Shown here one piece after another: positions 1,048-56,564 of a DNA stretch of 64,000 nucleotides. Each line of letters begins with the position of its first letter. Within the stretch, counting starts at the first letter, position 1. The stretch covers positions 186,001 through 250,000 of the forward strand of contig JAFCMP010000014.1 in assembly GCA_017506865.1 (NCBI GenBank), in the 5' to 3' direction. Position numbers and translations under genes: made by a program. The notes below the pieces were generated by a model. It was not told where the DNA came from and did not search any database. It saw only the letters and a program-made list of their open reading frames with translations. The stretch comes from Tribonema minus. Its lineage: Eukaryota; Sar; Xanthophyceae; Tribonematales; Tribonemataceae.

Positions 1048-4000
1048 TCAGTGCTGCCGCGCGGAGGGCGCGCCGCTGCCGCCGCTGCGGCTGCTGCCGC
1101 GCTCGCTGTCGCCGCGACCGCCGCCGCCGCCGCCGCTGCCGCTGCTGCTGCTGCGGTCGGTGCTCTGCACGCCGCTGCTGACCGTGCGCGAGCCGACGGT
1201 CGTCGCCGCCTCCACATCGTAGAATGGCGCCGCCGCCGCCGCCGCCGCCGCTGCCGCCGCCGCTGCCGCGTCGCCCGCCTTCCACAGCTCCGGCGACAGC
1301 GGCGGGAACGTGTTCATGGGCGTATTGGGCAGCTCCTGCAGCGCGGGGACGTGGGCGTTGGCGCAGCGCAGCGTGGCGCGCGCTTCGCGGCGCGCGCGGC
1401 GCCAGCCGTAGAGCACCATGCGCGGCGGGCCCGAGATCATCACCCAGAGGAAGACAGTCCAGCCGATGGAGAAGTAGAGGAGTTTGGGCTGGAAGCTGGA
1501 CGTCCAGAACTGCGTAAAGACGCCTTCGTCGGCGAGGATCTCGAGCACGGCCTTGGCCATCGCGCAGCCGCTGAGGAGGTAGACGAACACGTGCGGCGCG
1601 GCGTGGTAGAGGTTGGCTTTGAGGTCGAAGGAGACGTCCTTGCTCGTGACGGCGAAGCCCATCTCGACGCCGCAGAAGCCAATGAGGATCGCGCGGATGA
1701 GCGTCATGAAGACGGTGAAGTTGTCCTGCAGCGCGCGCAGGTAGTCGCGCCAGCACAGACGCCACCCCGCCAGGTACTGCATCACCATCATGAGCCCGAC
1801 CGCCGTGCCGCCGAACTCCAGGTACTCCTCGAAGGACACGGGGCCGAAGGAGATGGACGCGCCGGCAAGGATCGTGCTGTACATGATGACCCCCATCGCG
1901 CACACGGGGATGATGTAGAGGATGCCGACCGTGGACCAGAAGTAGAGCCAGCGCGCGCGCAGGTGCAGGCCCTTGGTGAAGAGCGGGTTGCCCGCGCGCA
2001 CGATCTGGATCGCGCCGACCGCCCAGCGCAGGCGCTGGACCTGCACGAGAAGGGTAGGTACAGGTATGGTTAGTGAGTAGGGTAGGTAGGTATGGGTAGT
2101 GATGCGTCAGCGCTCAGCGTGTGCATGATGGGGGGGGGGGGGGGGGCTGTGAGTAGGGGTAGGTAGGGTATGGTATGTGAGTGGGGTAGGTAGGGTATGG
2201 GTAGTGAGTGGGTAGGTAGGTATAGGGGGGGGTGGCACCGGGGATATCAGCGATGTGTCACGGCTCAGCGAAAGAGGGTGGCGTGAGGGGCGCAGGCGGC
2301 AAGCGCGCAGCAGATGCTGGCCGAGCCAGCGGCAAGCTGAACGCGTGGTTCTAGTACGAGAGGCACAGCGGCACTGATGGCGCGCTGGTGCGCAGGCGTG
2401 TATGGTCGCAACACACCCCCGCAAGCATGGTCGATGGCGCTTACTGCGCCCTACTGCAACTAGGTTCAAACTTGAAGTAGCATCAACATGATGAATCACA
2501 TAATGCAAGTGACGCACCATGAGCTCCTTGGGCAACGCGCCGCGCGGTCATGCAAACAAGTACTTGAACTTGAAGTGCAGTTCGCGACGACTCACCATGA
2601 AGGCGTTGAGCTCCTTGGGCGAGACGCCGCGCGTCATGCGCTGCAGGAAGTACTTGCACGTGTAGCCGTGCGCGCACAGGTTGAGCGACGTCTTGAAGTC
2701 CTCCGTGATGGACCCAGTGGAGAACCCCCCGACCTTCACCAGCGCGTGGCGGTTGAAGGTGACGCCGGTGCCGCAGCACGGCGTGCAGCCCGCGCCGTCC
2801 CACCCCGACAGCTGGCACTCGTAGAAGAACGCATACGACTGGCCCAGCAGGTCCTTGCTGTCCAGGTTGTAGAACGCCTGGGCGGTTACACAGAGCGAAA
2901 CGGCAAAGCGTCAGTGTCAGTTCCATGCAGCGGGGGCGCAGGTTTGAACAGGCCGATTACTGGGACGAGACTCTGCCGACGTATGCAGAAGTTGAGCTTG
3001 AAGTTCAACCTCCAATATCAGCGCTCCAACTACAACCTTCAACTTCAGCGCGCGCGCGCGACGGACGCACCTGCGGCGTCTGCAGCAGCCCCACGGTGTT
3101 GTCAAACTCGGCGCGCCGGCGCCCGCCCTCGACGTTGACGTCGCGGCGCGGCTTGGTGTAGAAGAACGGCGCCACGGTGCGCGCCATGCACGGCTCCGGC
3201 AGCATGTCGCAATCCAGGATGATGATGAGCTGGCCGCTGGAGCCCTCTTTGAGGATGACGTTGTTGAGGTTGCCGGCCTTGGCGTGGTGGGGGACGCCCG
3301 GAGTCTTGGTGCGCGCGACGTAGCGCGTGGACATGGCGCCCCGGTACATGAGCGCGTTGAGCTCCACCATCTCGCGCATGTCGGCGGACTGTTGCGAGGG
3401 CGAGGGGGCGGAAAGGGGAGGGGGGGGGGGAATGAGGGGGGGGAGGGGGTCAGCGGCGGCGCAGTAGCGGCTGTGCGCAACATGGCAGTTGGCCGTGAAG
3501 CAGCTGCCGCTTTGCGTGTGCGCGGCGCTGCGGTCGGGTTCTGCGCTAGGCAGTGCTGCCGATTTGTCTGCTGGACGTGAGCAGACGGATGAGACCTAGG
3601 GCAGGGCGGGGATGGTATGTACGAGCAGGCGCGTAGGCAGGGTATGTGTAAATGTAAGCGCTGCGCGGTCTCGCGTGCGACACTGACGCGGACGCAGGCG
3701 ACGTGTGCGACCAGCGGCAGGCACACCCAGCAGCAAGCGAGCGCACGGCGCGAGCACCACGTTGCGCAGTGAGACCAATGAGCGCGCACCTTGCCGTCGT
3801 CGCACACCCAGATGGTGATCTTGTACGCGGGGTAGTCCATGTCATAGCACGCCTTGAGCGTCATCTCGACGATCTCCGTGGGCTCGCTGTAGCACGGGAT
3901 CATGATGTCGACGGTGGGGAGGTCCTCATCGCGCAGGCCGAGCTGCGCCTGCGTCACGCGCTTGCGGAACTTGAGGTTCCACATCCACACCCAGTGCGTC

Positions 4001-4911
4001 ATGCCGAACAGGAATGAGACCGCCTCGGAGACGATGAAGGTCCACGCGCATGCGTCCTGCCACCACACGCCGCTGCGCGGGTAGTTGGCGGCGCGCCAGT
4101 AGATGAAGTACGCGATCAGCGCGCTGAGCGGCGGCATGAGGGCGCGCATCGCGTACGTGTACCACGGCGTCACGAAGTCCTCGTCCTCGGTGGAGCCCCA
4201 CGCGGCGACCTCCTGCGTGGCGGCGTCGACAATTGGTATTTGCTCCTGCAGAGCACTGCGCGCGCGCGAGACGTGCGCGGACGCGTACGCGCTGCTGCTG
4301 CAGCGCGACTGCAGGCGCAGCGTCGTCGCGACGGGCGACGTCAGGCTGAAGAAGATCTCGTTGGCGGGCAGGAACTTGGGGGGGTGGCTGATGCCGAGGC
4401 CCTCTGCGTCGAACGCGTCGCGCCCCTCCTCGCGCAGCACCGTGCCGTGGGTGCCCTCGCTGGGGACGGGCGACGCTGGAGCCCACTCATGGGAGGCCTG
4501 GGTGTCGTCGGCGTCGTCGTGTTCTGCCGACTGAGGCGTCAGGGTTACCTGTTGGTCACTGCTGTTGATCGCCGCCGCGGGCGGGGCCTCTGGTGCTGCT
4601 GCAGCAGCCTCCGCTGCTGCTTCCGCTGCCCCAGCTCGGTGCGATTGCATGGGTGAGCCGAAGAAGCGCCGAACGCGATTTGAGACAGGCGTGGCGTCTT
4701 GACTTTGAGGCGCGGCTTGTGCTGTTGCATGTTCTGTGCGCGCCATCCTCCTGCTTGCGATAGACTCGTCGTAGGAGGACAGCGAGGATATCGTGTTATT
4801 CGTATCGAAGGGCTGCCCTATATACTGCTCGGACTCCGCCGTCAGCACTTGTTGCGCATATTGCCGTGCTGTTTCGTCAAGTCGCTGCTGTTCTTGTGCA
4901 GGCTGCTGCAT
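1048..4911 (-). CDS. Cellulose-synthase-like family 2 glycosyltransferase, copy A
   Basis: Four exons, all joined in phase 0: 4911-3790, 3388-3071, 2877-2596, 2040-1048; 903-904 aa. The protein has a disordered N-terminus, two membrane helices (about residues 254-310), then a processive GT2 catalytic domain. The expected landmarks are all present: CDDGK (371-372 are the first Asp pair), DCD (433-435), the acceptor-site TED inside GSITEDF (538-540) and QRLRW (576-580), the Q-x-x-R-W signature of cellulose, chitin and hyaluronan synthases. Several C-terminal membrane helices follow, then a poly-Ala/Ser/Gly tail. By family it should polymerise a beta-linked glycan from a UDP-sugar at a membrane; the product cannot be read from sequence. 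Copy B (28948-33648) shares all three intron positions and most catalytic sequence, and has about 80 extra residues in the N-terminal region. The start was chosen because MQQP aligns with copy B MQQA. Confidence 0.88.
2041..2595 (-). repeat. Intron 3 of copy A: decayed exon-3 end copy plus pentanucleotide-like repeats
   Basis: Two repeat types occupy this intron. At 2511-2566 there is a degraded copy of the end of exon 3 (the CCCAAGGAGCTC..ATG block) followed by an intact GTGCGT donor, 78 bp beyond the real donor. Nearer the acceptor, the sense strand carries many variants of a ctaccctactcactaac unit and a 17-nt C tract (2130-2146). The same unit fills the end of intron 3 in copy B, together with a shared block containing catcatgcacacgct, so the intron was duplicated along with the gene. 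Confidence 0.8.
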
Positions 4912-5888
4912 GACTGCTGCCGGCTGGTTGGCGCTGCCTGCTCCTGCTCTGCTTTCCCCCTTGGAAGGCTTCGATCGATCTGTAGTGGCTACTTGCTCCT
5001 GCTGAATCCGACCGCAGACAGCGACAATCCGCGCAAGGTGCTACGCACTAAATCCAAACTTCCGTCTGCGCCAGTATCGTTAGGCTCTGCGTTGTGAGAG
5101 CTTCAGGTCAAGAGTAATGCAGAGCAAGGCAAGTTCTTTGGAAATATCTCGCTTCAGAAAAATTCTCTAATCTCAAAGCTGCTCTGAGCCTCTGGCTCCG
5201 GATCCGGAGCTGAAGCAATGCCGCCAGTGCCAGTGGAGCCATGCGCTGGCGCTGCCCCTCTCGGGAACACAACGGCAACCTCCTAAGTTTGCAAGTGTCG
5301 CACGATGCGACGGTTGTTGAAGCGTTGTGGTCAACCTCTCAAACCGGAAGCACGTTGACCGGCCCTGTCAAGTGTTGACTGAGAGCCTGCTCTATGACGA
5401 TGTCACAAGGCGCGGCGCCCGGCATCAGTCTGACTCAACAGCATGGGCACAGTCCATGTTGCACAGCACCGCGCCCATGGTGCACAGGATGAAGTTTCAA
5501 TTTGTACATGCGAAGACAGACGGCACAGAAGGCAACATCAGGACATGGTGTGGTGTCTTATTCACTGACAGTGGGACAAAGTCACGATGGTGGCCCACCA
5601 TTACCACCGCGCGAGCGCAAAACATGTTGCAACCGATCTGATCGACTGCTGGTGCTGGCTGAGAGAGATCTACACGCAGACGCACACCAGACAACGAATT
5701 TGGCATGACCGCACACCACACAGTCAGGCCCCGTGCACGCAGAGCACGGAATTTGCCCTCACACATGCACACTAACACACCTACTCAGAGCGAACCAGCG
5801 GGCACGACGTCGTGAAAAAACGCACGCGGCGCGGGCACGGCTGCAGCAGCGGCTGCTGCCGAGCGCTTTGTCAATCACGCTCGCGCTG
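4912..5888. other. Spacer between GT2 copy A start and VPS50 3' end
   Basis: This 977-bp stretch holds the upstream region of copy A and the 3' flank of VPS50, both on the minus strand. Open frames in it have no family resemblance. No clear TATA box or tRNA is visible. It does not resemble the 250 bp upstream of copy B, so the two GT2 copies appear to have different promoters. Confidence 0.5.
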
Positions 5889-10084: not shown

Positions 10085-10115
<31 letters not shown>

Positions 10116-11812: not shown

Positions 11813-11843
<31 letters not shown>

Positions 11844-14800
11844 AGCGGCGGCGGCGGCATCCAGCATGACGGGCACGCGCTGCCACTGCTCGTGCTCGAG
11901 CATCTGGCGCAGGACCGTCGCGGCCTCGGCGTGCGCGCCGCGGAAGAACTGCTCGCTCTTGTCCTGCAGGCAGCCTGCGCGCGGGCCGGCCAGCGAGCGG
12001 AGCGCCGATTTAATATTACCAGGTGGTGAGGTGTGGTGATGGTAAGTACTTCTGACGTATCTGAGAGTCGGTCGCGGGCGCAGCCCCGGTAGATGCGCAA
12101 GCAAGGCACCAGCGCTCAGTCCTCAGCCATCCAACTTAGAGCCTGGGATCGCAATCACGCGTGCGCGCGTCGGTGCACGACCCCACGATGGCAACCCGCC
12201 ATGTGTCCGCGGAATACAACAGCCCGCAGGCGCCACCACCTGAAGGCGGCGCGGGCGCGGGCGGCGCGCCGCGACGCACGCAACACACACGCGCAAGGCC
12301 TGCATACGTACGCACACGTCCGCCACGAAACGCGCACACACAGACACGAGATGCACACATGCATACGCGACGCGTACCCCGCAGCCGCGCGGCGCTCACG
12401 GCGTCGGACCACGCCGCGAGCTCCTGGCCGCCTGTGTCATGACCTGACAGCGGCGCGGGCGCCGTGACGCGGCAAACGAAACGCACACGCGCGAGAATGC
12501 ATACTTCATTTGAGGTACATGCACATACGTACCCCGCAGCCGCGCGGCGCTCGCGGCGTCGGACCCCGCGGCGAACTCCTCGCCGAGGCACGCGAGCATC
12601 TCCGCGGCGCCGAGCAGGCCGACAAAGTCCTCGAGCTTGAGGCCGCCGCCGTCCACGCACGCCGCGTCCAGCAGCGCCACCACGCGCTCCTCCACTGCCC
12701 CCCACAGCGCGCCGCGCTGCCGCCACAGGCGCTCGCGCAGCTGGTGCAGGTGCGGCTCGAGCGCCGCCGCGTCGGTGGCGTCGCCGGCGGCGGCGGCGGC
12801 GCCGGGCGGCGGCGGCGACGCCCTGGCGGGCGAGCGCTGCTGCTGCTGCCGCGACGCGGGCAGCGACTCCGGCGCGCCGATCGCGCAGCGGTGCAGCCAC
12901 TCGTCGTCCTCCGCGCGCTCGTCGAAGGGCGCGCGCAGGTACTGCAGCATGAGGTAGTGCGAGTGCAGCAGCTCCGCGCAGCCGCGGCACGCGCCGACGA
13001 GCGCCGGCAGCAGCGCCGCCGACGGCAGGCGCGCGAAGAGCGCCTCGAGGGAGCCGCCGCTGCTGCTGCGCGCCGCGGCGGCGCTGCCGGTGGCGCGCCG
13101 CGCCGCACCGGCGGGGCCCTCGGGGGAGCCGTGCGCGCTCGAGACGCCATCGAACGCCGCCGCGGCGCCTGCGATGCGGCAGCAGCAGCAGCGGCGCGGT
13201 CAGAAAGGTGGACCCGAGGAGTGAGAGCGACCGGCAAGCAAGTTTTGAGGGAATCGAAGAGCGGTTTGGAGGCGCGCCAGGGCGTCTGCGCTGCGCGCTG
13301 CGGCGCTGCCCGCCGTCAGATGGCACATGCGTTCGCCCGGTCGGTCTGTTAAAGCGCTTGCGCAGGTCAGCCCTTCAAGAACAAAGCGCACGCCCCGTAG
13401 TCCAGTGCAGCATCGTGATGACTCCCCATGCTCCGACTGGCTCAAGAGTTTCCTGCACTCGGGTGGCGTCGCCCTGCGCTCTCTGTTGGCAGGTATTTCT
13501 TGAGTCACATCTTAGGGTCACAGTTGGCGCTCCGTGCCGGACTGCGGTACGAAGGCACCGCTCCCTGTTGAGGCACAATAGACCCTCAGCGCACCACACC
13601 ACGCATGCAGACAGTGCGTTTCCACACACTGCGGAGCGCGACCTCGTTAGCACAAAACACGAGCATCATCATCGCTCCGCACCCAACATGCTCTCGGCGC
13701 TCACGCCGTCATTGCGTCCCCACCCCGCGCGCACGCACCTGCGCCGCCGCCGCCGTGCTCCGCCGCCTCTGCCGCCGGCGCGCCCTCCGCGACGCGCGTC
13801 GCCTCCTGCACCGCGTCCGCAATCTGCCTGTCCACTTCCTCGCGCATGACGCGCTCAATGTGCCGCGCCAGCAGCGCCAGGCCGCGCCCGGGGCCCGCCG
13901 TCGGCTCCGTCAGCGCCGCGCGCACCGCGACGCCCAGCGCCGACTGCGGCAGCAGCGGCGGCGGAGGCGGCGGCGGCACGCGCTGCGCGCGCGGCGGCGA
14001 CGCCATGCGCGGCAGCAGCCCGTCGCTGCCGTCGTCCGTGCTGCCGCCGCCGCCACCGCCGCCGCCGGTGAGGTCGTCAACAGGGCCGAACGCGGACGGC
14101 GCCGCCGCCGCCGCGGCACCGCCGCCGCTGCTGCCGACGTTGTCGGAGTCGTCCGAGGCGGCGTCCGTGGGCGCGTCGCCCGCCGCCTTGCCGTCCGGCT
14201 CCATCTGCCCCCAGCCCTCTGGCCACGCGTCCGTCGACTCCGGCACCGCGAACGAGAAGAAGTCCTCGGCGGCAGCAGCGCCGGCGGCAGCAGCGCCGGC
14301 GGCAGCAGCAGCGCCGGAGCCCGCCCTCGCGGCCGTCAGCAGCGGCGCCCCGTCCTCGCCGTCCGCGTCGCTGCCGCCCTCGCTCTCGTCCTCCTCAAAG
14401 TCGTTGAGCGCGCGGCCCGGCGGCAGCGGCGGCGGCGCAGGCGCCTGCGCGTGCGCGCCCGCGCGGCCGCGCGCCGCCGCCTCCGCCAGCACCGCCGACA
14501 GCGTCGGCTCCTTGGAGGGGCCCGCCGGCAGCACCTTGAAGGTGGCCGCGGCGAGCGCCGCAACAGCGGCGCCCTTGGCGCGCCCCGCCGCGGACGTTGG
14601 CGGCAGCGGCGGCGGCGGCGGCGGCGCGAGCGCGCCCGCGGCCTCCAGCAGCACGTACGCGCGCACGACGACGGCGTACTCCGCCGCCGAGAAGCGGCGG
14701 CACGTCGCGGCCGCGGTCGCCTCGACCTGTGAGGGGAGAGCGGCGGTGAGCGCGGGTGAAGACAGCAGCGCAGCTGTGTGCGTGCGCGCTGCGCAGCGCA

Positions 14801-15388: not shown

Positions 15389-18300
15389 GTCACGCACCTG
15401 CGCGCGCACGCGCGGCAGCACGCCCGCCGAGCGCTCCCGCAGCCCCCCGAGCGCGGCGATGTCGCGCAGGCCGCCCGCGCCGCGCGCCGCGAGCGCTCGC
15501 CGCAGCTCCGCCGCCATGTCCATCGCGAGCGCGAAGCGCCCAGCGTTGATGGCGGCGTTGATGGCCGCCTCCGCGGCGAGCGCCGCGCGCGTCGCGGCGG
15601 TGGCGGCGAGCAGCGCGGCGCCGCGCTCGCGCCGCGTGTGCAGGCGCAGCGCCTGCAGGATGCCGCCGCTGCCGCGGTCCGCGGCGTTGCGCAGGCGGCG
15701 GCGCGCGCTCGCGGCCTGCACGCCCGCCGTGGTGAGGTCGCTGTCGACGGCTTGCACCTGGGGGAGGGGGGGCGCGAGTGTGTGGGGGGGGGGGCGAGAG
15801 GGGAAAGGGGGGGGGGTCAGTCATGCTGCATTTCTAAGCATGCGCCGGCTTTATGCCCTTGGCGAGTGCTGCAGAAGCGGCTTGAATCTTCACCACGAGC
15901 GCGAGCGCGATGGCCTCCCGTGCCAGGCCCTTTCCGCACAGCCTGCATCAGCACACGTACGGCGTGTGACGGCGCGACCAGCGAGCACTAATGCAGTGCT
16001 TGCAAACCCATGTCACGGCGTCAGCGGCGAGCGTCATCAATGCTCAGCACGCAGCGACAGACCCACCTGCCTGCTTCATGCCCTCGGCGGCGAGCGCCGC
16101 GTAGTTGGCCTGGATCTTGCCCGCGAGCGGCGCGTGGCGGCCTCGCGTGCCAGGCCTAAGCTGTGCGAGCACTATAAATCACGGTCCCATCCAATGCTCG
16201 GCACGCAGCGACAGGCCGTTCTACCTGCTTCATGCCCTCTGCAAGCGCCGCGTGATTGGCCTGGATCTTGCCGCGAGCGAGCGCACGAGGTCTAAGCTCC
16301 GCGAAGGCCAGTCAGCTTGAAGTGTCACACACCATGCAGCGAGCGACTGACCGCTTTCTCCGTGCTGACGCGCGGCGCCGGCGCCGCCGAGCATCAGCAG
16401 ACAGGCCCGCCTACCTGCTTCGTGCCCTCGGCGAGCGCGGCGTAGTTGGCCTGGATCTCGCCGGCGAGCGCGCGCGTGATCGCCTCGCGCGCGAGGTCCT
16501 TGTCGCGCAGCTCGCATCAGCATACACGTGAGTGACAGCGCGACTGGCAAGTGGAGCCCAGTCTGTTCCACGACCCACCGTGCGTGCTCTGCAAGGACTG
16601 CCTACCTGCTTCATGCCCTCGGCGAGCGCGGCGTAGTTGGCCTGGATCTTGCCCGCGAGCGCGCGCGTTATCGCCTCGCGCGCGAGGTCCTTGTCGCGCA
16701 GCTCGCGCTCAATGTACTGGTCCAGCAGCCCCGCGGCGCCCGCGGGCATCTCGTCGATGACCTGCAGGACGGGGTCGAAGTGCGCGTCGTAGAAGCGCGC
16801 GTCGAGCGCGCCCACGACCTCGCCCTCGCTGCGCAGCTTGATGACGGCGAACGGGACCTGGAAGGGGTGTGTGTTGGGGGAGGGGGTCGCAGACACGGGG
16901 GAGGGGGGGGGGGGCACAGGATTAGCCTGGGAGGGGAGGGGAGGAGCGTCGCGGTCGGAAGTATACGGGCGAGGGGGGGGAAGGGGGGGCAGGAGGGATT
17001 TAGGGGGCGCTCCGGCTTCAGTGGTGGGGTGAGCTGCATCGCGGTCGGAGGCACACGCGGGGGGGGGGGGGGGGGGGGGGGGGGGGCGCGTGAATAGGGG
17101 TCGCTCCGGCTTCAGTGGTGGGGGTGAGCTGGAGGGCGTTGGCAGCAGTGGCACCGCATGGGACTGGGGCAGAAGCGCCATGATTGGCGGCATCGCGGTT
17201 GGCTGTGGGTGCGAGGGGGGGTGCGCGAGCTGGAAAGTATGGCGGCCGCGCTGACGCTGGCCAGCCTCCAGGGGGGCGTTAGTAGCGGCAGCACTGCATG
17301 GGAGGCATCATGGTCGGGCACCCAATCGTCCGCACGTTCGATGGACGACAGCAAACAGAGCACTGCGCCGCGCTGTGCGCGCCCGCAAGCATGCCGCAGC
17401 TGCGCGCAGCAGCCCCAGTGCGCCGTGCGAGGACGCTCGACCCTGTTTGCGTTGACGCTGAAGTGGTCGCGGCACCGTGCGGCTCTGCATGTGTCCAGCA
17501 GGCTGACAATGGTGAAGCGCGCGAAAGCGGAACACGACAAAGCCGGCCCCGCTTCGCGGCGCGCAGGCGGGCGCAACGGCAGGTCTTCGATCTGGCTGTG
17601 CAGCCCTGCCGCCGCGCAAGGGCATTGGGTAGGGTTATTTCAAGATGGTGCGGTCGTCATGATACTACTCCGCAGCAGGAGCGGCACAGGCGAAAAGCGC
17701 CGCTGCGGCGGCAGCTCACAGATATTCTCAAAGAATCCGCAGTGACAGCGCCTCGCGGGCCCCGGGCGCTCGGCGCCGCGGCAGCATCGCTGCAAGGGTG
17801 AGCGCCGCTGACCTCACGGGGGCAGGGAGCGAGCGCGTATGAACGCCTGCCGATCGCGACGAGTGCAGTGCTCGTCAGCGCGAGGCGACCGCTGCGAGGC
17901 GCGCGGTCTCGTACGGCACTACAAAACCTGCCCTACACACACGCTCAGTCAACCAAGCACAAGCGACCGTAAGCGACCGTGCAGAGCACTGCCACACGTT
18001 CAACGCACCGTGTCCGCAACCGGCAAGTCCGGTATCATATCATCGCCCGGGCCGCCCCCCTGCCCCACGGACCCCCCCAGTCCCCCCCTCGCACCCCCCC
18101 CGCCGCCCGTGCCGCCGCTGCCGCCACCGCCAGTTCCTCCGCCGCTCCCCCCCCCCCCCGCTGGTGCAGGTTGTTCATCACCGCGAGCGGCGACAGGCGC
18201 CGCTGCTGCTGCATCGGCGACCCGTCTGGCGTCGCCGTGGGGCTGCGCTTGCCGAGCAGCTTGGTGATGACGGGCGGCGGGCGCTTCGGCTGCCGCTGCA

Positions 18301-24950: not shown

Positions 24951-24991
<41 letters not shown>

Positions 24992-38200: not shown

Positions 38201-41200
38201 CAGTCCCCGTGTTGCCAGGCATGGGGCCATGTGGCGGTGCTGCTGGCGGCGGCGGCGCATGATCGCGACGGAGCGCTGCGGTGGTCACGCGCAGCGCGTC
38301 CCGCGGCAGGCCGCGCTGCAGCAGCACGTACGCGTACGCCCTCTCCGCCTGCGCGCAGCAGCGCGACGCGCGCGCTCGCACCTTGGCGACTTCTTGAGGT
38401 GGAATGGGCGGCCTCGGCGCAACTGTTAGAGGAGTCGGCAGCAGCCGATGCGCCTCAAAGGTAGCTTCCTCTCGAGTTCGAACAGGGTAACAGGTAAAAA
38501 TCACAGAAGTGATTCATATCAGTGATGACGCCCCGTTGTGTGCATGCGTGCCTCCTGTCATGGCTCAGCTCTGTGACACACGCTTGTTGAGGTTTGCAGA
38601 CTGCAATGAACGACGCACCTCCGCCGCTGACGGCCCCTGCTGCCGTTCAAAGTAGCAAGTCTGCTGCGGCGCGCCGCTGCCGCCGCCGCTGCTGCCGCCT
38701 TCACCCAGAGCGCCGCCGCCGTCGCCGCCGCCGCCGCCGCCGCCGCCGCTGCAGCGGCCCAGCGCCTCCAGCATCAGCTGCGCGTACTGCGAGCGCGCGT
38801 GGCGGCAGCGAACAACATCATGCTGACGTTTTTGTCGTCGCACAGCATCAAAAAGCGTGCCGTGTCTCCATGTCTGTGGCTCAGGGCCATACATCCTTCA
38901 CCATGCATGTCGAGGACCGTAACTTCAAAACCCGATCCTGCTGCACGAGGCACTGTGCACACGGGGCACAATGATGAGTCGGTGCGTTTTGGCCCGTGCT
39001 CCCCCCCCCCCCCCCCCCCGCCAGCCAAGCGATCTGCCACATGCATACTGTGTGTGTGATAGGTACGAGTACGGGGCATGTACACACGCGCTGCTGCACG
39101 CACCACTCTCACACGCACGCCGCTGCTGCAAAACCACGTACTTCAAGAGGCAGTTACACATACTTCAACTGGGGCGTCGCACACGTACCGGCCAGTCGCG
39201 CAGCTCCATGCTCGCGCGCGCGGCGAGCCACGCGATGCGTTCCAGCGGCACCGCCGGAAGCTGAGCGCTGCCACAGAGGTGCGCGGAGCCGCTGCCGCCG
39301 TCGGGCTCAGCGGCGCCGCTGCCGCTGCTGCTGCCGTCAGCGCCGCTGCTGCAGCGCGCGCCGCCGGTGCCGCCGCCTGCGGAGGGCCGCAGCCTGAGGC
39401 GTACGTACCGCTGCTGCGACCGACAACAAGAATTCCAGGCAACGACGTGTGAGAGTGGTAGGCGCCAGCAACGAGCCAGGGCGGCGGCGGTGCTGCCATG
39501 GCATGTACGCAGGGCATGCGCGCATACTGTCGATCAAGCGCATCGCATAACGACGCACATGCCAACTGCTGACTGCTATGTATGCACAATCGCCATCTCA
39601 AAGGGGCCCTTTCTTCTTCTTCGCCGCCCCCGCGCATGTGCGCGCGCCGTTGCCAACGGCGCCGACGCCGAGGCTGTCGCTGCCTGCGCCGCGTCGGGAG
39701 CGGCGGCGCGGGGGCGGCGGCTGCAGGCGGCGCCAACATGAGCTTTTGTGGGGGGGGACTGGGGGGCGGAAGGTGGTGACGCTGAGCATATGCAGACACG
39801 GCACTGGCGTGACCGTGCCGGGGGGGGGGGGGGGGGGGGGGGGGGACGGACGGTGGCGATGCTCCGCACAGCATTAGGAGGGCCGACGTAGCGGTGATCC
39901 AGCGCACTCTTAGACCATCGCTGCCATGGATGCTAGTAGAGCGGCGCTGCGCCGCACACAGCATACGCATCATGCATACACACTTTGAAAGACGTCGTCC
40001 GTTGTAGAGAGACGCGCTGGAGCGCGCGCTGGCGCTGAGCGCTGCTGCTGCTGCTGCTTGCAAACCGCGGCTGCGACTGCCCGGGCCCAGCGGCAGAGTG
40101 AGCGCCAATGCTGGACATGACATCACAGCGAGCGCCTCAGGGTGAGGGCTGAGGTTTACCAAGCCCGACCCTGAGGCTGACCCCAAATCTCAGGTACATG
40201 GAGTTTGCCATGACCATCGCACACACGTATCCTTGGCGAAACGTGCACCGTCGCTGCACCAGTGGCGCGCGTGCGTGCAGCCGCATGCTGAGCGCTGCTG
40301 ACACGCTGCGCGCGCATCGCTGACCGCGCGCACCGCCCCCCCCCCTCTGCAGCTGCACTGTGAAACCGCAACAGCCAGAGGGCGCCGTGACTCGACGTTG
40401 CGGCACACACACGCACACCTCCGCGTTCACGCGCGCCCCACGCCGTCCCCCTAAACATTTACGTGGCCAAAAACGTTCCGTGCAAAAAACGTTTCATGCA
40501 ACCCTACACTTGACGCACCTCCTCGTTCGTGCGCGCCCCGCGCCGTCCCCCTAACTCCCCCCCCTCCATCTCCGCGGCGAGCGCAACCAGAGCGTTCCTC
40601 GCGCGTTCCCTGTCGCCGGCGCTCCAGGCGACGCACGCGCCGCCGAACGCCGCCTCCGCCGCGCACGACGGCTGCACGGACTGCGCGCGCCTGCGGCAGC
40701 GGTTACAGCGGGGTGAAACTGTCAGTCCGCTTTCAGAGCCTCGTGCCGACCAAAGCGGCGGTGGAATCAGGTTGAAAGCTGGCAGTCCGCCTTCAGAGCT
40801 CGCGCCGGCCAAGCAGAGTTGAAGTAGCCCTGCTCGCTGACCCTGCTAGAGACATCCTCTCTGAAGGGGCGGAACGCGCTTGGGTCGTGCGTTTACGTCA
40901 CGCGAGTGACATCGGTCTATGCCAGCGGGGCACGCCAGCGGGTGAGCGTGCGACGGAGCATATGGCAGCGCTCTGCGGCAGCTGAGTGCTCAACTGCCGA
41001 AAGCGACGCGCTGCGCGCATGCCCGCTGCACCCTCAGCATCGGCACATTCTCCGTACGACTTCAACAACCTCAATCACATGTGGCCTGCGCACGGGCAAC
41101 ACGCAGAGTCAGCCATGCGCGTGACGCCCCGACCGCACCGCACTGCTGCCCTGTGCATAAGCGATTCGCAGAGCCGACAACGTCCAACTTCACTGCACCT

Positions 41201-44200
41201 GAAGAGCGTCGCGGCGCCCCCGTGGCGCCCGCAGCGCAGCGCTGCGCAGCCACCGGCCGCCAGCGCACGACTTCAACAACCTCGTATCATGTTGAGCACT
41301 GCTGCCTGTGCCCGAGCAACACACAGAGTCAGCCACGCACGCAAAACTCCGACCACACCGCACCTGAACAGCGTCGCGGCGTCCCCGTGGCGCCCGCAGC
41401 GCAGCGCCGCGCAGCCGCCGGCCACCAGCGCCTGCGCGCAGCCCTGCGCCGCCGCCGCGCCCGCTGCTGCGGCGACCTCGCGCACCGCCTGCGATTGGAG
41501 TGCACGGGAGGTAGCGCGCGTGTGAGCGCGGCACGGCGCGGTCAGGGTTTGTGCAAGCGCGTGGTGCCTGTGTGCGTGTGTGTTTGAGGGGGGGGGGGGG
41601 GGGGGGAGGGGGGAGATGATGGCGCGGCGGCTGCCTGATGATCGCAGCGCGGCGACCTCGCGCATTGCATGCGGACGGAGTGCGCAGCAGGCAGCACGTG
41701 CGTGAGCGTGGCATAAATTGGTCGAGGTTCATGTAAGTGGCCGCCTGATGATGACAGGCACAAGAGAGCTCCGCACCCCGACCCCCCCAGCCCTAGGGTT
41801 AGGGTTAGACTCCAGACCTGACCCCGCGCAGGCCGGACCGCCGGATGAGCCATGTGCTGCAGGAACGGCTGCCCCGCCGTGTGACGGGGACCATGTGAGC
41901 TACCGTTCCGATACAGTTCTGGACGAAGCAGAAGCAGCGGGTCATTGAAAGGTGCGCAGGGCACGGCAGGTGCCGACGCCTGACAGAAAACACACACACA
42001 GCTCAGGAACCAACCTGTGGTGCCTCGCCACCCCCGCGGCCGCCGCCGCCGCCGTGGCCAGCAGCAGCGAGCTTGAGCTGCGCCAGGCAAGCGCGCGCCG
42101 GCGCCAGGGCGGGATCCAGCTGCACGCACTCCGCCACAGCGGAGAGGGCATCTGGAGAGCCCTCCTCTGCGGCGGGCGCGCGGGGCGGTCAATGCGTCGG
42201 AGTTTAGGGTAAGGGTTAGAGCGGGTGCGGCGCAGCGCGAGACTGGAACGCGCGCGTCGGGTGCGCTGATGCGGTGCTCTGAGCCTCTGCGTGCAGGTGC
42301 AGCGAGGGTGCGTGGGGTATGCATTGGGGGGGGGGGGGGGCGCGCGGGGGTGTGTGTGCGCAAGGCGCGTTTCAGCACAGAGCCGTCCATGTCCTGGGAA
42401 GCGGAGGGCGCGACCGGGGAGCCCTCCTCTGCGGCATGCACGACGGTTGGTGCAGCCAAGTGAGAGGGTTTGGCGTGGTGCGACGCTACATTCCACGTGC
42501 CAGATGCACTGAGCGACTGCATGCGGGTGCGGAATGCAAGCAACGCTCATGCGCGATGCAAGCAACGCTCATGCCGTGCGCGCATGCAGGGCGGCCAGAC
42601 GGGCTGCGCAAGTCGCGTTCGAGCGCAGAGCGCTGTTCGTGCCAGGGAAGCAGCAAGTGAGACGTGCAGGCTGGGAGGGGGGGGGGGGGGGGGGGGGCAT
42701 AGGATAGCACAGGCACACCGGGCGCCGCAGTGTTCCTGTGCAGAACGTTGAGGATCTGATGCGTATCACAAAAGTCCATTGGGGCGGGGGGGGGGCAGTG
42801 AGGCCACGTGAGCAGTGCGGCGCACTGGACAGCGCTGCGTCATGCGCCGAGCGCTAAGCTCGCACACACCGCAAACACGTGGCGCCTGCCATTCTACACT
42901 TGACCAGATGGTGGCATCACGCCGCGGACCAGTGCATCAGCGAAGGCGACGAGCGGCGCCTCACGTCGCTCATGGCGGTGACACAAGCATGCTCTGCAGC
43001 GCATGCTGAGTAAACACAAGCATTTCGGCAGCCTCTTTACCTAGCAGGCAGAGCGCGTGCAGCATCTTAATGACGGCCGCGTCCTGCGCGCGCGCGTTGC
43101 GAGTGGCAGCACTCCCCGCGCCGCTGGCCTGTGACAGTTACAAGAAACGGCAGTTACAGAAGGGCAGAAGTGGGCAGGGGGCGGCGATGATGCCACGCGC
43201 GTCAGCACCGGCGGTGCAGTGACGTGACAAAAGAGTTGGTGGCACAGGCCGCAGCCCCCTGCACACCGTCAACTTCAAGTGATTAGGCGACCGAAAGTCG
43301 CCGGCAGAGCAGCTACTCGGCAGACATGCATCAGAGAGTGTGCAGAAACAAACTTCTGCTCAGGCATCGGTCCACCTCCACGCGCCGTGCACAACGCGTG
43401 ACGCACTCTGCCGGTCGCTGCGCGCACGTGCGACAGCTCGTCACAGCACCCCTAATCTCGCGGCAGCAAGGCAGGCGCCCTGCTCGTATTGCGGACCCTT
43501 CGCGGCACCGGCCTGCGCCAGTCCTTGGCGAGCATCGGACCGCCGCTGTGGCGTGGTAGCGTCGCCCGACTCAGGAGAGGGGTGCTTGCGTGCGATGCGG
43601 TGCTTCACCCTGACTGCGTTCCAGCTCGTCCCTTCTTGTAACCCCCACTGACTAGCTCCGCCGCCAGCAATGCTCACCGACTGTGTGCCGTGTTTCGTTG
43701 ACACATGAACCACGCTCGCCAGCGCTGCTGGGACAGCGCTCAGGGGGAGCGGCGCGCCTAACCCAACTCCCTAAACCCTACCCCAACCCCAAGCCCTGAT
43801 GTGCGTGGAAGACGCGCGCTAGCAGCGCCCTCATGCAGCGCAACCTCATTCAGCGGACGGCCGTACTGCAAGCCCGCGCCAGCAGCAACGCCAGCCGCAG
43901 TGACGCGACGATTCCGCAGTGGCGCCCAGCACTCTCCAATGGAGCGCGCGCAGGGCCCTCTGCAGCAGCGCTCGCCAGCGCCGCCGGCGCCGGGACCCTA
44001 ACCCTAGCCTGAAGGAGCAGCATGCGGCGTTGGAGGGGGTGCGTACACTCACCAGCGCCGCCAGCGCGGCACGCGGGGAGCTCTCGGAAGCGACGCCGTC
44101 GAGCAGCGCCACAACGCGTCTGCAGCAGCAACAGCAGCGGTGGCGGCAGCAGCAGCAGCAGCAGCGGCAGCGGCGGCGCAAAGGGTCTGCGGTCAAGCAG

Positions 44201-44483
44201 CGAGCGCTAATCCCAAACGTGATGTCTGGCTCAGCTCCCCGCAGCATGTGCGTGGACGCCTGTTCACGCGCCCGCAGCAGAATAGCAGCGGCGCAGAGGA
44301 GAACCGCCTGGGCACTCGGGGCGCGGACGTGGCAAACGCGAGTGCTGCAGGCGGCGACGGCCGAGCACTGACCTGGCCTGGTGCCACTGCCCCAGCGCCA
44401 TGTCCGCGCAGCACAGCGCCCACGCCAGGCGCGTGAGCCGCCGCGCCGGCGCTGCGCCTGCGCCGGGCGCCCGCCCGCACGTG

Positions 44484-44514
<31 letters not shown>

Positions 44515-47790: not shown

Positions 47791-50700
47791 CTATGTCTGT
47801 GCCTGGCTGTCCTTGGCCTTTTGTTTCTCCAGCCACGCCTCCGGGTTGGCAAAGTCGTACCCCGCTGCCGCTGCCTCGCGCTCCTCGTCCGTGGGCAGGT
47901 ACGCGCTGCAGGACGGCATGAAAGTGAAGTTGATGAGTTGCAGTATACTACATTTGAGCACTGCACACCTGTCACGGTGAACGCGAATATCACTTCTGCG
48001 CCCTCCCTACTTCGTGTGCAAATGTCAATCGCTCCACAATCACGTGATAGTCAAGAGTGTGTAACGGGCTGAATTGAATGCACATCAAGGGCATACTACT
48101 GTGACACTAATAATTAGGGGACGATTTCGAATTATCTTACAGGGTAGAAGTGCGGATGGAGGCCAGCACCCTGCGCCGCGCAGTAGACATCTTCTCCAAA
48201 GCGCAGCTGTGGATGTGGGAAAAGCACTACCAGACGGCAGGGCAGTCCCTCACGCACGCGGTGGTCATGCTCCCTCTCTCGGACCACTGGAAGAGAGTGG
48301 GGCACGTTTTTTAAGGTGTGCGAAGAGAGGAATTTGGCTACGGGTAGGGGAGAGAGGAAGTGCCCGAAGGTGACCAGCAGAGTTAGGGTTAGGGTTAGGC
48401 CTAACCCGTCTGTACCCTAATTATAAAGCCCTTCGCTAGATCTACACGTCTGTGATGCGCCTTGATGAGGAGACGGTCACGGCGTCTCGGTACGTCCCAG
48501 CGTTCACGGCCCGTCGAATTGCAATCGCTCAGGTATGCCATGTGGTAAACCCTAGGCTAGCCCTAGTGATTATTAGTTTCACAGTACATAGTAGTTCACA
48601 CTGTGCCGTGTCAGGGGTCGCCAGAACGCAGGCGGAAGTTTACCATTGCATCACGCGTGTTGTGGCCTCTTTGCATTATTAGCACGGGAAGCACACGAGA
48701 ACAGCGGTAGCACTACTACTGGTTGTTGGGTGATCACGTGCACGTGACTTGCCGTCAAAGCTTGTCAACCATGCACTTTTCACAATACATTCATTCTCGC
48801 TCAGGTACCTTTGTACTTGTCTTAATTAGGTAGTTCTCGCGTAAGCACTTTTGAGCCATTTTGCTCCTTCCTGGTTTCATGCCCAGTGCGTAGAATGACA
48901 CACGTTGAGCGTTTTGACATCACATGTCACGCATCATCTACAAGGGGCTTACAAGGCGTGTTGTTCAGTGCTATAACCATGTAAGGTACCATATGCCCGC
49001 GCATGGCATCTGTATACCAGCTCCCCATTCATGGGCAGGTATGCCTTCACGATAACAGAACAGTTGACAGTTGCTGATCTGCTGGACAGACGAGCACAGG
49101 TGCCTTTGGAGCATCAAACTGCAACTTCAAAGGCGTGCTTCGAAGTGCCAGTGCAAGTGTATAGAGCGGATGTACGAATCTGACATGCCTGTACTGCAGA
49201 GAGCTGCAGGTACACAGTGCACCACCATCTACAGAACAAAGGAACTGTGTATTGATTATTGAAAACGTGAGAATATCAACTGCTCTCTTGCGCTACCGCA
49301 TAGGCTGTAAGTTACAGCTGTACCTTCAGGCACAAATACAGCCATGGTATGCAAGCTCAGCTGCAGCCTGCTAACTTCAAAGCACCCCTTCATGCTCACA
49401 GCAGAGGTACATGGCCCGTTTTGCCATCATGTTGACAAGGCAAAATGGGCCAGTTGTGACTGGCGTTGCCGTATGCAATACCTTCTTGTTTGGTCCTGTG
49501 TACTACCAGTGTCGTCGAACAACCACAGTCATTTCAACAAAATAAAGCTGCAAGTCATCCGCAACCTACATAATTTCCCAGACCACCAATCGGAGAGTGC
49601 AGGTTTTGGCTTGCTGGTGGTCAAGCGCTAACATAAAAGGCAACAAACTGGCCACAGGAGGCATGCTTGCGCTGCTCTGCACTCACTTTGAAATTATACT
49701 GGTATATGCAGTCGCATAAAGTGCTGCTGCTTTCAACCGCCAGTTTCACCTTTTCGTGTACAAGCCTTGGCTGACTGCGAAACCTTGGCTGACTGTGAAA
49801 TCTTGGCTCACTGCAAGGCCGCAGCTGTATCATATCCTGATCGTCCCCCAAGAATCTGCTGTCAAGAAACGCTTCAAGTAGGCAACTTGGCATACCCAAC
49901 ACATTTCATAAAGCCGAGCACGGTGCGTGCCCAACACGTCGCGCGACAGGTTGCCGCCCGAAAACGTGCAACTTGCAGTAAACGCTGCTGCTGTGCCTGA
50001 GCAGTAACCCATCGTGGCCGTGGCGTGCACCAGCCATGCATGGGATGACGTGGGCGCGGTTGCCGTCGACAAGCATGGCATCACTACACTGCGGCCGTTG
50101 CCGCACATTGTGGAACAGAAAGGTTCTATTCCTGCATCAACGTTGCAGCACGACAAGACTCCACAAAGTGCCACAGGAAAGTTCTGGCTTAAGATAAGCG
50201 TCGCAGCACATGAATCCAGGGGAGCGGGCACTCACGAGATCCAGTCGAACGTTGGGTTTGGCTTGTCCTCCTGCCAGTGGCGAGTACAGCACTGGCATCA
50301 TGACGGCGGCAGCTGCTGAAATGAGTTTGTACCGAAATGAGCGTTACAGCACAAGAATCCAGGGGAGCGGGCACTCACGAGATCCAGTCGAACGTCGGGT
50401 TTGGCTTGTCCTCCCACACCTCCACCCTGTCGTTCTGCCTATCCCAGCTGGCATCCGCCGCGAGCTGCTCCAGCTGTGGAGCCGCAATCACCGCAACAGC
50501 ACAGCACGCCGACAATGCTCTTTGTCATGACTCTGGTTGTACTGGCAGTTTCCAAGTCAGCAGCCGCAGTCAGTATCGTAGCTCGTGGGTGTTGACTTTG
50601 GAACTTCAATATAACGGCTGCACTGCTACTAGATTCATACGCAGGCGCCAAGACAGAACAGCAGAGCTGTTGGAAAATTGACTCGCCATGAACGTCGCCA

Positions 50701-52207: not shown

Positions 52208-55200
52208 ATGTCTACGCTCTTCTCAACTGCCCAGCTGTCGGTGCTGGTCGACGTCGCCTTCGGATTCAGCATAGTGTCCCTGCTGGGCAGCGCCTTTATC
52301 TGCCTGAGCACATTCCTCTTCCCCAAGCTGCGCACGTTTGCTTTCAAACTGATCCTGGCTCTGGCCATATCCAACATCGGCCTGGACATCGCATATCTGC
52401 TGGGAAACCCAGCGTCTGCAAGTACGGCGCTTTGCTATGCACAGGGACTGGTGAGAGCAACTCTGCGGCGAACCTGTTCTATTTGAAACACACGAGTCAT
52501 GCACAGTTGGCTTCTACGCAATTCTGTAGTGTGAGGCCAAAGCCTACAGTAGCAGCAGTGAACAGGCATGCCTTCTGTGCTGATGTGAGGCAGCAGCAGC
52601 AGCAGCAGCAGCAGTTCAGATCTGCCAGATGTCGCTGTAGCCTTTTTTGGTTGGCAGACAGATTTGAACCACGATCGCTGCTGTCGTTGCAGCACACGTG
52701 CATGATGGGCACACACACAGTTTCCCCCTGACTGCGCTACTGCCAGGGCTGCTTGCTGTGCCTCGAGCCAGGCTGAGCGGCGCGCTTTATGTACTGCAGC
52801 AGCAGTCGCGCGCACCCCACACAGTCCACGTCTCCGCTCGCCACCTTTTGCGCGGGTACATTGCATGCGCCATCGCGTTCATGACTCAGCGACGTCATTG
52901 CCTTTCGCTGCTGCTCGGGGCGCACTGCACGCGCACATTCACATTTGAGTTGTATTCATGGGCTTTCTGTTGCCCTCGCGTCCAACATTCAGCAACTTCG
53001 TTGCCTTCCGCTGCTGCTCGCGACGCCGTGCATGCGCACATGCGCATCTACTTTACTGCACTGATGCGGCTCCGGCTGCCTTCGAGTGCCTATGGTTCAC
53101 CAACTTTGTTGCCTTCCGCTGCCTGCTCGGCGCGCGCTGCGTGCACAGATGCGCGTCTACTTTGCGTTGGTGGGGTTCCTGCTGACGACCACCATCACGC
53201 TCACGTGCTACCACATGGTGGTCAAGCAGGACCTCAGCATCACCGAGAGGTGAGCCATGCTGCGGTGCTGGCGCACAGCCGCAGTCCCCGGTGCAGAGGG
53301 CTCCTCCTCACTGGGCGGTGCAGATTCACCTACTGCGCGACGAGAGCGTCGTGCTCAAGCACAGCGTCATCTGCGGCCCGCCGCCGAATCACAGCAGCCG
53401 CTGCCGCTCGTGCGCCGGGAAACATGTCGTGCCGGCGGCACTGCCGAGCGCTGCTGCTGCTGCTGCCGCCGCCGCGGAGCGCTGCCTCACCATCGCCGCG
53501 CCGAGCACCACCTCTCCATCAACAGCTTCGCACTCCGATCCTCACCAGTCGCTCCCCCCCCCCCGCGCGCACAGGCTGCGGCGCATCATGGCGGTGTGCT
53601 GGTGCGCGCCGCTGCCGCTCGCGCTGCTGCCGCTGGCGACGCGCTCGTACGGCGACGCGGGCGCGTGGTGCAGCGTCGTCGCAAACGGCGCGGGCGACAC
53701 GGCGGGCGTCGTGTGGCGCTTTGCGGCACTGTATGCGCCGCTGTGGGCGGCAGTCGCGGCGAACCTGTGGATGCACGTTGCGGCGTCGCGTGTGCTGGGG
53801 CGGCTGGAGCGCGCTGCTGCTGCTGCGGGGGGGAGCGACGCGGAGAGCCCTGTGTCAGAGGTGAGCGCTGCCCTGCGCTGTGCGCGCTTGCCAGTACTCC
53901 CATCGAGAGCTGCGAGGCTGCAGTGCTCTGCGGCTGTGGTGGGAAGCAGCTGCCGCGTCGCATTCTGTGCGAGTGCATGTGAGGGGGGAGAAGCATCTTG
54001 CGTGGGCATGAGAGAGATTGATCGCCGAGAGAGCTCACGGCACACAGCAGTCGCGGTACATACGTGCCGCTTACGCGACTGGTGCGCGGCGCCTCCGCCA
54101 CACTTGCTATGTGTGCTATACATAGGTAAGCTCGTCGTGGTGTCACACGCGCTGGAGCGCGCCGCTGCTGCGGGGGGGGGCGGCTCGGGGGGCGACGCGG
54201 AGAGCCCCGCGTCCGAGATGAGCGCTGCGGGTGGGTATCACGGCCAGAAGTAAGGCGTGGTGAAGTTCAATGTTGAAGTACGCGCTGCATCTGCAGAATG
54301 GCAGTTGCCATAACCAGTTCTGTGCTGACACATGTACATTTGGGGCACCTGGTGCGGACATGTAGCGTGTGGTGGAACGGCTCGGTACCTGCAATACGAG
54401 AAAAGAATGCACTCATGGCGTGTCTGGTCCGCGAGCTGCGGAAGCACGGCGCAGCTGCATTCAATTGGCGCACGCCAGGCAAGTGCACGCGGACGAACCT
54501 TAACTCTAATTATCATGCTAATCTCGCAGCGTGTACTTGTTCAACAGCATCCCTAGGGAGCACCCTTGCGTAGATGCCGAGATCAACCAAATGGATAGCA
54601 GCATGCCGCAGTGTCGCACGCACTTGGACTTCCTGCTGCTGCTTCGCGCGCGATTTGCCGACATGCGCTTGTGAGGTGTGTGCGGGAGCATGTTCGTATC
54701 CGCAGAGGTGCGCTTCAGGCTTGTCCAGCGCGCGAGCGCTGCCAGAAGCGAAGAAAGGGGGGGGGGGGGGGGGGGGGGCTTCGTGGGTGAAATGGCGCCC
54801 CAAGGTGTAGTTGGTACAATGCAGGGTGTGCATACGGTATGTATAGGCTTGGCCAGCATGCCTCGCACCTTGTAGTGCAGTGATGCGCAGCAACGAAGAG
54901 CCGCATCCTGCAGCTCAACGAATGGGCTTGAGATGGCCGCATTGAGGCACTCGGAAGTATGGCACCGCCGTCAGCTTTGGACTGCTTCAAATCCCCTTCC
55001 GCATGATTTCAACATATGCTTCTCTGCTCCTTCAACATTGTGTGGAACAAGGTTGCGGGCTCGCCTGACCGCCAGATACCATATGACCAAAAGCGGTACC
55101 TTCTCATCAGCCTTTCTCATGTGCTGGTTGCCCTCTGCTCACCGCACATGCGCGCAGCATGTGATGACATCACCTGCGTGCTTTGCATGCGCCCCGCCCT

Positions 55201-56564
55201 CTCCCGCCTGTGCTTCACAAAGTATCATTCCCCCCCCCTCAACCCCCTCCCCCTCTCGTCATTGGCCGCTTGTGCCCTCTTGAGCGTGTGCTTCACACAG
55301 AGTATTCCCCCCCCCCAGACCCCCTCCCCTCGCAAAGCACTCACCCCCCCTCCCCCCCCCCTCAACCCCCTTCACCCCTGTCACATGGCCGCTTGTGCGC
55401 AGCACACGGGGCTGGTGCACGGTCAGTCGCGCGCGCTGGCGGTCATCGCGCGCCTGCGCATGTACCCCGTCGTGCTGTGCGTGTGCTGGAGCTGGGCGTC
55501 CGTCAACCGCGTGTACGAGCTCGCCGCGCCGGACGCGCCACAGTTCTGGCTGTACCTGCTCCAGTACTCCTTCCAGGTGCATGCGCGTGCATCGTAGCTG
55601 TACGGTCATTTTTAGAGGAACGCGGGCAGCGATGGACATGTTGGGGGCATCAGAACGTGTGACAGGCACAAGTAGTGTTAGCTCGTACCTGCTCCAGTAC
55701 TCCTTCCAGGTGCGCGCATGTGTACCGTCGCTGTACAGGGCAGTGCACGCGTGTACTGCCGCTGCTCGGGGCCCTATGAGAGCTTGAGCGACATCCAATG
55801 GCCTTCGCCTGTACCGGCTCTGTTCAGGCCGGTGAGCTTGTGTACTGTATCAGTATAGGCCAGTGCACTTGCGTACTGTGTCTGCATCAAGCCGGTTCTC
55901 CATCTGCATTTGCTTGACGTCACCTTCAGCGGGTGTGAAAGGAGACATATGCTGATTTGAGTTGGCAGCGTGCAACTAGATTTGAAGCTGGTGTGCGCCG
56001 CTCACGCTGTGGGTAAAATTACACTGGATCGCCGTGCGCGTGGCACGCGTTTGGCTAATGCTCGTGATGGCACACGTGCAGTGCCTGTGTGTACATTCGT
56101 ATGTGTTGAATGTTCCGGCGCGCACTGCATCGTGCAGCCATCATCGCTCCAGCCATGCTGACCCTGACATACAGTCAGCAGACTCGCGATACCGTGCGGT
56201 GCGCCGCGACACACGGCGCCCTGCGGGAAATCACGCTGACGGGGACCCCCCTGCTTGCCCCCTGTTTCCCCCCCACCCGCACCCCCCTCTTCCTCCCCTC
56301 CAGACGCTGAACGGCGTGCTCAACGCCATCGTGTACGCAGTCACGCCCAGCGTCGACGAAGAGTGGGCGCAGTGGGCGCAGCAGCTACACCGCAGAGGTC
56401 AGGCATGGGGCGCAGCGCGGCGGCGGCGGTGGCGACTGGGGTGGCCGTGGAGCGCTGCTGCTGGTGGCGGCGGCTCAGCTGCAGCCGCGGAAAGCGGTGG
56501 CGGCGGCAGCGGCGGCGGCGCGACGGCAGCTGCTGCTGGAATGCTAAGCGTCAAGCCGGAGTGA
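52208..56564 (+). CDS. Seven-TM receptor of the cAMP-receptor / GCR1 type
   Basis: Exons 52208-52450, 53149-53249, 53575-53860, 55403-55576 and 56304-56564 join in phase to give 354 aa. Exon 1 holds two helices with the loop FLFPKLRTFAFKLILALAIS. Exon 2 is the third helix (YFALVGFLLTTTITLTCYHM). Exon 3 covers helices 4 and 5 with an extracellular GAWCSVV segment, as in the cAMP-receptor family. Exons 4 and 5 cover helices 6 and 7, with YPVVLCVCWSWASVNRVYEL and TLNGVLNAIVYAVTPSV, the latter being the characteristic end of helix 7. The C-terminal tail is Gly/Ala-rich and short. The family comprises the Dictyostelium cAMP receptors and plant GCR1; ligand and G-protein coupling cannot be inferred. 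Exon 2 is the least certain, because its start lies among repeated upstream copies. Start codon: first ATG before helix 1. Confidence 0.78.
52880..53165 (+). repeat. Repeated acceptor-exon start upstream of receptor exon 2
   Basis: A unit ttgccttccgctgctgctcg followed by gcgcacatgcgcatctacttt occurs in three versions, near 52890, 52997 and 53108. The last contains the exon start used here (ATGCGCGTCTACTTTGCG after gtgcacag). The first two are degraded and in the upstream intron. Confidence 0.8.
53790..54240 (+). repeat. Duplicated end of receptor exon 3
   Basis: The exon 3 end (ggcgacgcggagagccc type, then gtgagcgctg after 53860) recurs 357 bp downstream, ending at 54217. In the copy the donor GTGAGC is ATGAGC, so it is disabled. 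Confidence 0.85.
55550..55760 (+). repeat. 133-bp tandem duplication of receptor exon 4 end and donor
   Basis: The exon end tacctgctccagtactcctt ending at 55576 is repeated exactly over about 24 bp, ending at 55709, and followed by GTGCGC. The intron parts after each donor are also related (cgtagctgtac versus cgtcgctgtac). Both donors look usable. Confidence 0.9.

Follow-up and report, generated by a model that had tools for sequence, protein, structure and literature searches.

Short-range duplications in Tribonema minus introns frequently cross exon–intron junctions

Within a 64,000-nucleotide stretch of the xanthophyte Tribonema minus (GenBank assembly GCA_017506865.1, contig JAFCMP010000014.1; C14:186001-250000, hereafter the window), and in further pieces of the same assembly, many locally duplicated stretches cross an exon–intron junction, at the donor or at the acceptor, depositing part of the exon and a splice signal in the intron, and several such copies can pile up at a single junction. 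The explanation that we favour, with a probability of about 0.6, is recurrent short-range duplication in fast-changing introns, for which the constrained exon serves as a lasting template. In this intron-rich nuclear genome, short-range and mostly tandem duplications with periods of 50–200 bp would be frequent; selection would remove a duplication lying wholly inside an exon, and one that crosses a junction would do no harm while splicing keeps to the original site. Held constant by selection, the exon would stay a recognisable and recombinable partner for the intronic copies, and because of this constancy junction arrays would remain visible and keep re-expanding for longer than purely intronic ones. 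Fresh copies would adjoin the exon and older ones would lie deeper in the intron, with intron growth and turnover as the net result and spare splice sites as a by-product that is probably unused. To our knowledge, intron lengthening without transposons is poorly documented; this genome, in which roughly a fifth of donor junctions (16/75 to 25/132) bear a recognisable copy of themselves, offers a direct record of intron growth, allows the tolerance of spare splice sites to be measured and makes it possible to test whether nearby duplication is steered by constrained exons.

The analysis covered 314 kb of the 158-Mb, 554-contig assembly, namely the window, the 10 kb flanking it at either end, one 50-kb stretch and 18 more pieces of 10 kb. 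Gene models came from a small hidden Markov gene finder self-trained on the letters of this sample, which converged on the donor AG/GTGAGT and the acceptor TGCAG/G (slashes mark the junction) and missed at least one exon (the one ending at 50379 in a small gene of the window), leaving the junction counts incomplete. Local repeats in the window were tabulated by self-comparison. Two exons of one array (C13b) are copies themselves: they were counted in the 60-bp exon-end searches and in the pairwise-identity and codon-position counts, excluded from the analyses of copy-to-copy identity, array gradient and splice-signal retention, and not singled out in the two-sided window, restricted-intron, repeat-family and pseudo-junction counts. 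Beyond short matches, no second copy was found for probes of 301 and 1101 bp from the window or of 1400 bp from L019.

Exon ends recur specifically in the introns that flank them. For 25 of 132 exons, the last 60 bp had a copy in the intron that follows (two of these start from exons which are copies within one array), against 0/132 and 0/134 in random introns, and for 18 of 137 the first 60 bp had one in the preceding intron, against 1/136 in the control. Searched on the far side, exon ends matched the upstream intron in 2/135 cases and exon starts the downstream intron in 6/121. In the comparison with internal exon segments, proposed when the pattern was first noticed and run here on the sample, such segments had copies in introns in only 1/94, 0/58 and 0/98 cases; purely intronic 60-bp windows were themselves repeated in 14/125, 14/126, 8/117, 16/112 and 12/119. 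Two-sided 60-bp windows gave a nearby copy for 30/124 donors and 24/125 acceptors, compared with 83/1071 in intron interiors, 12/237 in the intergenic state and 9/232 in exon interiors, the interior and intergenic classes being assigned by the gene finder and possibly mixed, and with 0/131 on a foreign contig; internal exon and intergenic segments were therefore not duplicated as often as boundaries, an equality that would have spoken against the original prediction. Restricting the count to 82 introns of 120–1500 bp left 20/77 donor, 9/71 acceptor and 57/604 interior windows with a copy. Local matches were direct rather than inverted in 276 versus 37 instances, overlapping matches within one array included. 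Junction copies occur at acceptors as well as at donors, and outside this window too.

How much of this excess lies in the eye of the observer has to be weighed, as a partly exonic copy is easier to read than an intronic one. Pure recognition bias, i.e. duplication spread uniformly over introns and their margins with junction-crossing cases merely easier to see, appears rather unlikely to us, and the evidence on it is divided. Intron-interior repeats are common: 75 introns between confident exons held 41 repeat families, of which 17 span the donor and 11 the acceptor (2 span both), leaving 15 that span neither. Uniform placement would nonetheless give 5.2 donor, 5.2 acceptor and 30.6 interior families, hence 10.4 boundary families for the 26 observed. 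In the cleanest control, which takes pseudo-junctions at points inside the same introns, donors were spanned in 20/100, 16/75 and 8/51 cases for three exon sets, with pseudo-junction rates of 0.055, 0.056 and 0.051, and acceptors in 16/100, 11/75 and 5/51, with rates of 0.072, 0.057 and 0.052, amounting to an excess of 3.1–3.8 fold for donors (3.6 and 3.8 fold in the two larger sets) and 1.9–2.6 fold for acceptors. The corresponding P values were 5.1e-7, 3.6e-6 and 0.004 for donors and 0.0021, 0.0035 and 0.13 for acceptors. The exon copy escapes decay, and recognition may therefore account for up to twofold of the junction excess; with the interior rate doubled, as an assumed upper bound for the advantage of one constant copy, the donor excess kept P values of 0.0062 and 0.0086 in the two larger sets and lost support in the strictest (0.14), and no acceptor value was significant (0.36, 0.23 and 0.63). 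The low acceptor share among the 82 restricted introns (9/71, against 57/604 in interiors) likewise speaks for recognition.

That bias was also simulated. Duplications were planted in 41 introns without detected repeats, with slow-changing exons and the same detection applied; the boundary share reached 0.22–0.36 in eight settings, compared with 26/41 observed (P 1.1e-5 to 1.5e-7 under three turnover models), and boundary duplications were detected about 1.0–1.9 times as readily as interior ones. The pseudo-junction counts thus show a clear raw excess for the two larger exon sets, which recognition explains largely, perhaps not wholly: junction-spanning copies stand out through the legible exon copy and perhaps also through the exon persisting as a template. 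The initial suggestion that introns here grow by local duplication is supported in part, by the many local duplications and by the over-representation of junctions among them; exclusivity is not supported, since acceptors and intron interiors are duplicated as well, and part of the excess follows from recognition.

The arrangement of the copies adds to the argument for recurrent duplication from the exon. With a Smith-Waterman cut-off of 34, any copy was found at 40 junctions, and two or more copies at 16 of them. Within these 16 arrays the nearer copy was the more exon-like in 40 pairs versus 15 (permutation p 0.0028), and in 44 versus 11 when judged by score (p 0.0002), a gradient matching what would be left by repeated junction duplication displacing older copies. 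It is possible, and we suggest it tentatively, that exons permanently re-seed their own ends and splice sites into the flanking introns, as a conveyor along which intron age rises with distance from the exon. Tandem repeats (minisatellites) occur in introns, and the arrays described here, made of 2–6 decaying units, are alike in this respect; they differ in being anchored on the exon end and graded away from it. Of 121 repeat clusters, 92 had periods of 50–199 bp, the lower limit being partly set by the detection method, and numbers dropped abruptly near 200 bp, from 17 clusters at 175–199 bp to 3 at 200–224 bp, with 10 more at 350–399 bp that may be double units. Conjecturally, a limit of about 200 bp could be nucleosome- or Okazaki-sized.

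This size limit is also what might be expected from a mutational hot spot, in which nicks, R-loop edges or nucleosome edges at exon borders would lead to staggered breaks whose fill-in duplicates the junction. The boundary enrichment in the family and pseudo-junction counts agrees with such a mechanism, as do the 11 of 17 donor families whose alignment stops within 27 bp beyond the donor. Small tandem duplications arising from fill-in and end joining at DNA breaks have moreover been described (PMC8355091); like the copies reported here they are short direct repeats of nearby DNA, and unlike them they come, in the abstract of that study, with no named splice-junction preference. However, the first 60 bp of introns should then be hot too, and they carried copies in 8/77 cases, close to the 57/604 of interior windows; we regard the hot spot as an unlikely explanation. 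Direct repeats flanking a short unrelated insert, as left by break repair with filler, fit both sides of one exon (L003:9004-9135), and other cases resemble full tandem units. The picture for tandem duplication is mixed too: the unit is precise in L006 (period 118), and other young copies have a non-homologous spacer.

The decay of the copies bears on whether selection retains them. Exon parts of the copies differ from their originals by 0 to about 20%, which argues, in line with the initial view, against a collapsed assembly. In 35 pairs, the exon parts had a mean identity of 92% and the intron parts, at their expected place, 78% of aligned columns, a value to be read against the 68–77% that shuffled sequence already yields; the intron part of the unit was detected where a tandem duplication predicts it (z>4) in 19 of the 35. 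Constraint on the copies, suggested by this high exon identity, was rejected as the main explanation. Compared among themselves, copies ascertained from the exon side had identities of 0.815 (exon) and 0.662 (intron) in 28 pairs, the order was reversed by intron-side ascertainment (0.676 and 0.798, 14 pairs), and the difference disappeared with junction-centred windows (0.755 and 0.732, the exon side being higher in 33 of 71 pairs). The simplest reading is that the copies decay neutrally.

Retention of the copies by selection, whether for a splicing role (spare or regulatory sites) or as alternative exons, is quite improbable, even if several features could be read in its favour. GT is kept by 29 of 36 donor copies and AG by 14 of 17 acceptor copies, and 28 of the 36 donor copies reach a donor-matrix score of at least 4; 38 exon-copy pairs show no stop codon in their aligned ungapped segments, with 62 synonymous and 48 non-synonymous codon differences, and matching falls just beyond the donor hexamer. 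Against this, copy-to-copy differences by codon position (132/165/242, one array being counted three times) give a third-position share of 0.45, which by our own estimate is about that of mutation at GC-rich third positions; the exon and intron sides evolve alike (the 33/71 above), and several copies carry indels. Alignments to the kinase, EF-hand and Vps54_N domains, finally, read across the points where intronic copies had been omitted from the gene models, and this domain read-through supports, without proving, that the omitted copies are intronic.

Several observations weigh against recurrent neutral duplication templated by the exon, at least in its plainest form. The very nearest copy was the best match in only 9 of the 16 arrays (6.2 expected). 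In some young copies, those of exon L003:9004-9135 (minus strand) of a cellulose-synthase-like gene, unrelated spacers replace the full tandem unit: its last 42 bp are copied downstream (41/42) and its first 40 bp upstream (40/40), about 90 bp away on each side. Among 36 exon-ascertained copies, ungapped matching drops past donor position +6, from 0.81 (+3 to +6) to 0.53 (+7 to +12) and 0.36 (+21 to +30). The share of exon-ascertained copies with an intron flank at z>4 was 0.43, 0.43, 0.75 and 0.67 by identity bin, and simulated neutral tandem duplications gave 0.55–0.82, 0.74–0.94, 0.82–0.98 and 0.91–0.98, higher in every bin. The plain neutral model with detection bias also fails, with its 0.22–0.36, to cover the whole boundary excess. 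Either rapid intron turnover, which GT2 gene copies A and B suggest, or renewal of the copy by its exon could account for the drop past +6 and for the scarcity of the intron part, and adding a lasting template to the neutral model is plausible but unproven.

Intron gain by tandem duplication of AGGT sites, or by introner insertion, is hardly credible as the source of these copies: tandem duplication is involved and the junctions carry AG/GT, but none of 75 introns showed the gain signature on either side (the last part of the upstream exon recurring at the intron's 3' end, or the first part of the downstream exon at its 5' end), the mismatched control likewise giving 0, and within the 314 kb the spacers share no common element. 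In the AGGT model, an exonic segment duplicates and a new intron arises between the two AGGT copies (PMC3443670; Drosophila cases in PMC2891723). The process described there has in common with ours a local tandem duplication carrying AG/GT and exon sequence; it differs in that our duplications run across a junction already present and lengthen the intron that is there. Introners, described as common in aquatic lineages (PMC9860276), share with our case fast intron change and differ in forming families of related inserts. The 26 boundary families yielded 19 spacers of at least 20 bp, of which 18 had no match on other pieces of the sample and one had two short matches; the spacers being mutually unrelated, a shared mobile element was discarded, in line with the original prediction. 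Among the titles and abstract openings searched, a scope outside which most subscription journals lie, we found no work describing arrays of junction-spanning duplications as a pattern across a genome.

In the window itself, the original prediction had named 11 duplications in at least four genes. Ten were recovered, the last, a relic in a TPR gene, not being assignable to one repeat; recurrence across genes stands, and the number of genes is six. On the minus strand, exon 12533-13168 of a VPS50-like gene has its 3' end and donor copied at 12373-12430 (period 155, 48/53 exon bases identical, GT kept), and the same gene, whose product contains a Vps54_N domain, holds a five-copy array of an exon end and donor at 15844-16706, its strongest coding copy being exon 16606-16857. 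On the plus strand, the 3' end and donor region of exon 24371-24832 of an MPP-beta gene (product with Peptidase_M16 and M16_C domains) recur at 24926-24966 (period 111; 37/41, in a partly GC-repetitive stretch), and more repeats follow as far as 25092. The TPR gene (minus strand) carries a copy of the 3' part of exon 37200-37378 at 37008-37119 (period 199, 75/92), of the 3' end and donor of exon 40519-40690 at 40416-40454 (period 100, 32/36 exon bases), and of the 3' end of exon 41359-41488 at 41183-41266 (period 165, from self-comparison), with a weaker repeat at 41053-41143. In the small gene (minus strand), a putative plastid gene, the exon end and donor are copied at 50194-50271 from the original at 50337-50414 (period 143, 93.6% over 78 bp), the junction at 50379 being read from the sequence. 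A receptor gene (plus strand) has the 3' end of exon 53299-53860 copied at 54151-54228 (period about 357, 61/78) and the 3' end and donor of exon 55403-55576 copied at 55685-55736 (period 133; 25/25 exon and 20/27 intron bases).

Spanning an exon–intron boundary had been proposed as the common property of the named duplications; not every local duplication here spans a donor boundary. In the TPR gene, the 5' end of exon 41359-41488 has an acceptor-type copy in the upstream intron at 41652-41713 (minus strand, period 180), detected as a local repeat. A repeat at 52869-53078 (plus strand, period about 103) has a partner, 52972-53184, that crosses the acceptor of exon 53149-53249, the exon part alone being weak (29/39). 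Two further minus-strand duplications, used for comparison, are entirely intronic, at 37468-37671 (period 127–131, 88%) and, in tandem, at 36580-36694 (period 54, from self-comparison). In the intron after position 7832 of L002, degenerate CCCTAA telomere-type repeats adjoin an exon-end copy.

Two inverted copies of a GT2 (cellulose-synthase-like) gene, A at 1048-4625 (minus strand) and B at 29272-33648 (plus strand), have exons that are 84–97% identical and introns whose ends align better than their middles. In copy A, a decayed copy of the 3' end of exon 3 (2596-2877) lies in intron 3 at 2520-2575 (minus strand, 46/60 aligned columns), at an offset of 87–90 bp; the distance from donor to copied donor is 78 bp, because the copy lacks 9 bp, as read from the sequence. 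Exon 3 is 96.8% identical between A and B and the middle of the intron is hardly alignable, having turned over; the exon-3 copy was not found in B (Smith-Waterman 18, compared with 45), and would thus have been gained in A or lost in B.

Pfam domains in the predicted products comprise EF-hand, kinase, kinesin, PGK, M16 and Vps54_N, with a cellulose-synthase match under the cut-off. At about 60540-62071, a predicted antenna-protein gene carries a leader with an ASAFVAP motif, which we take to be of secondary-plastid type. Its matches in the PDB are antenna chains of the chlorophyll a/c type and related ones, and these do not fix the lineage; judging from this one protein, the plastid would be a red-type secondary one, and the leader speaks against a plain green alga, GC-rich codon use notwithstanding. 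Two pieces elsewhere in the assembly, L033 (C90:789001-799000) and L034 (C179:177063-187062), have a GC content of 52%, long uninterrupted frames and no bias in GC content at third codon positions (GC3). Being 93% identical over 10 kb, they were considered as an allele pair, but no gene was found there and their codon composition differs (GC3 about 0.5); they were taken for another organism and not used, and the assembly seems to hold a second organism. Uninterrupted or nearly uninterrupted runs of G or C, 26–40 bases long, occur in the window at 17059-17086, 24253-24280, 34281-34320 and 39820-39845.

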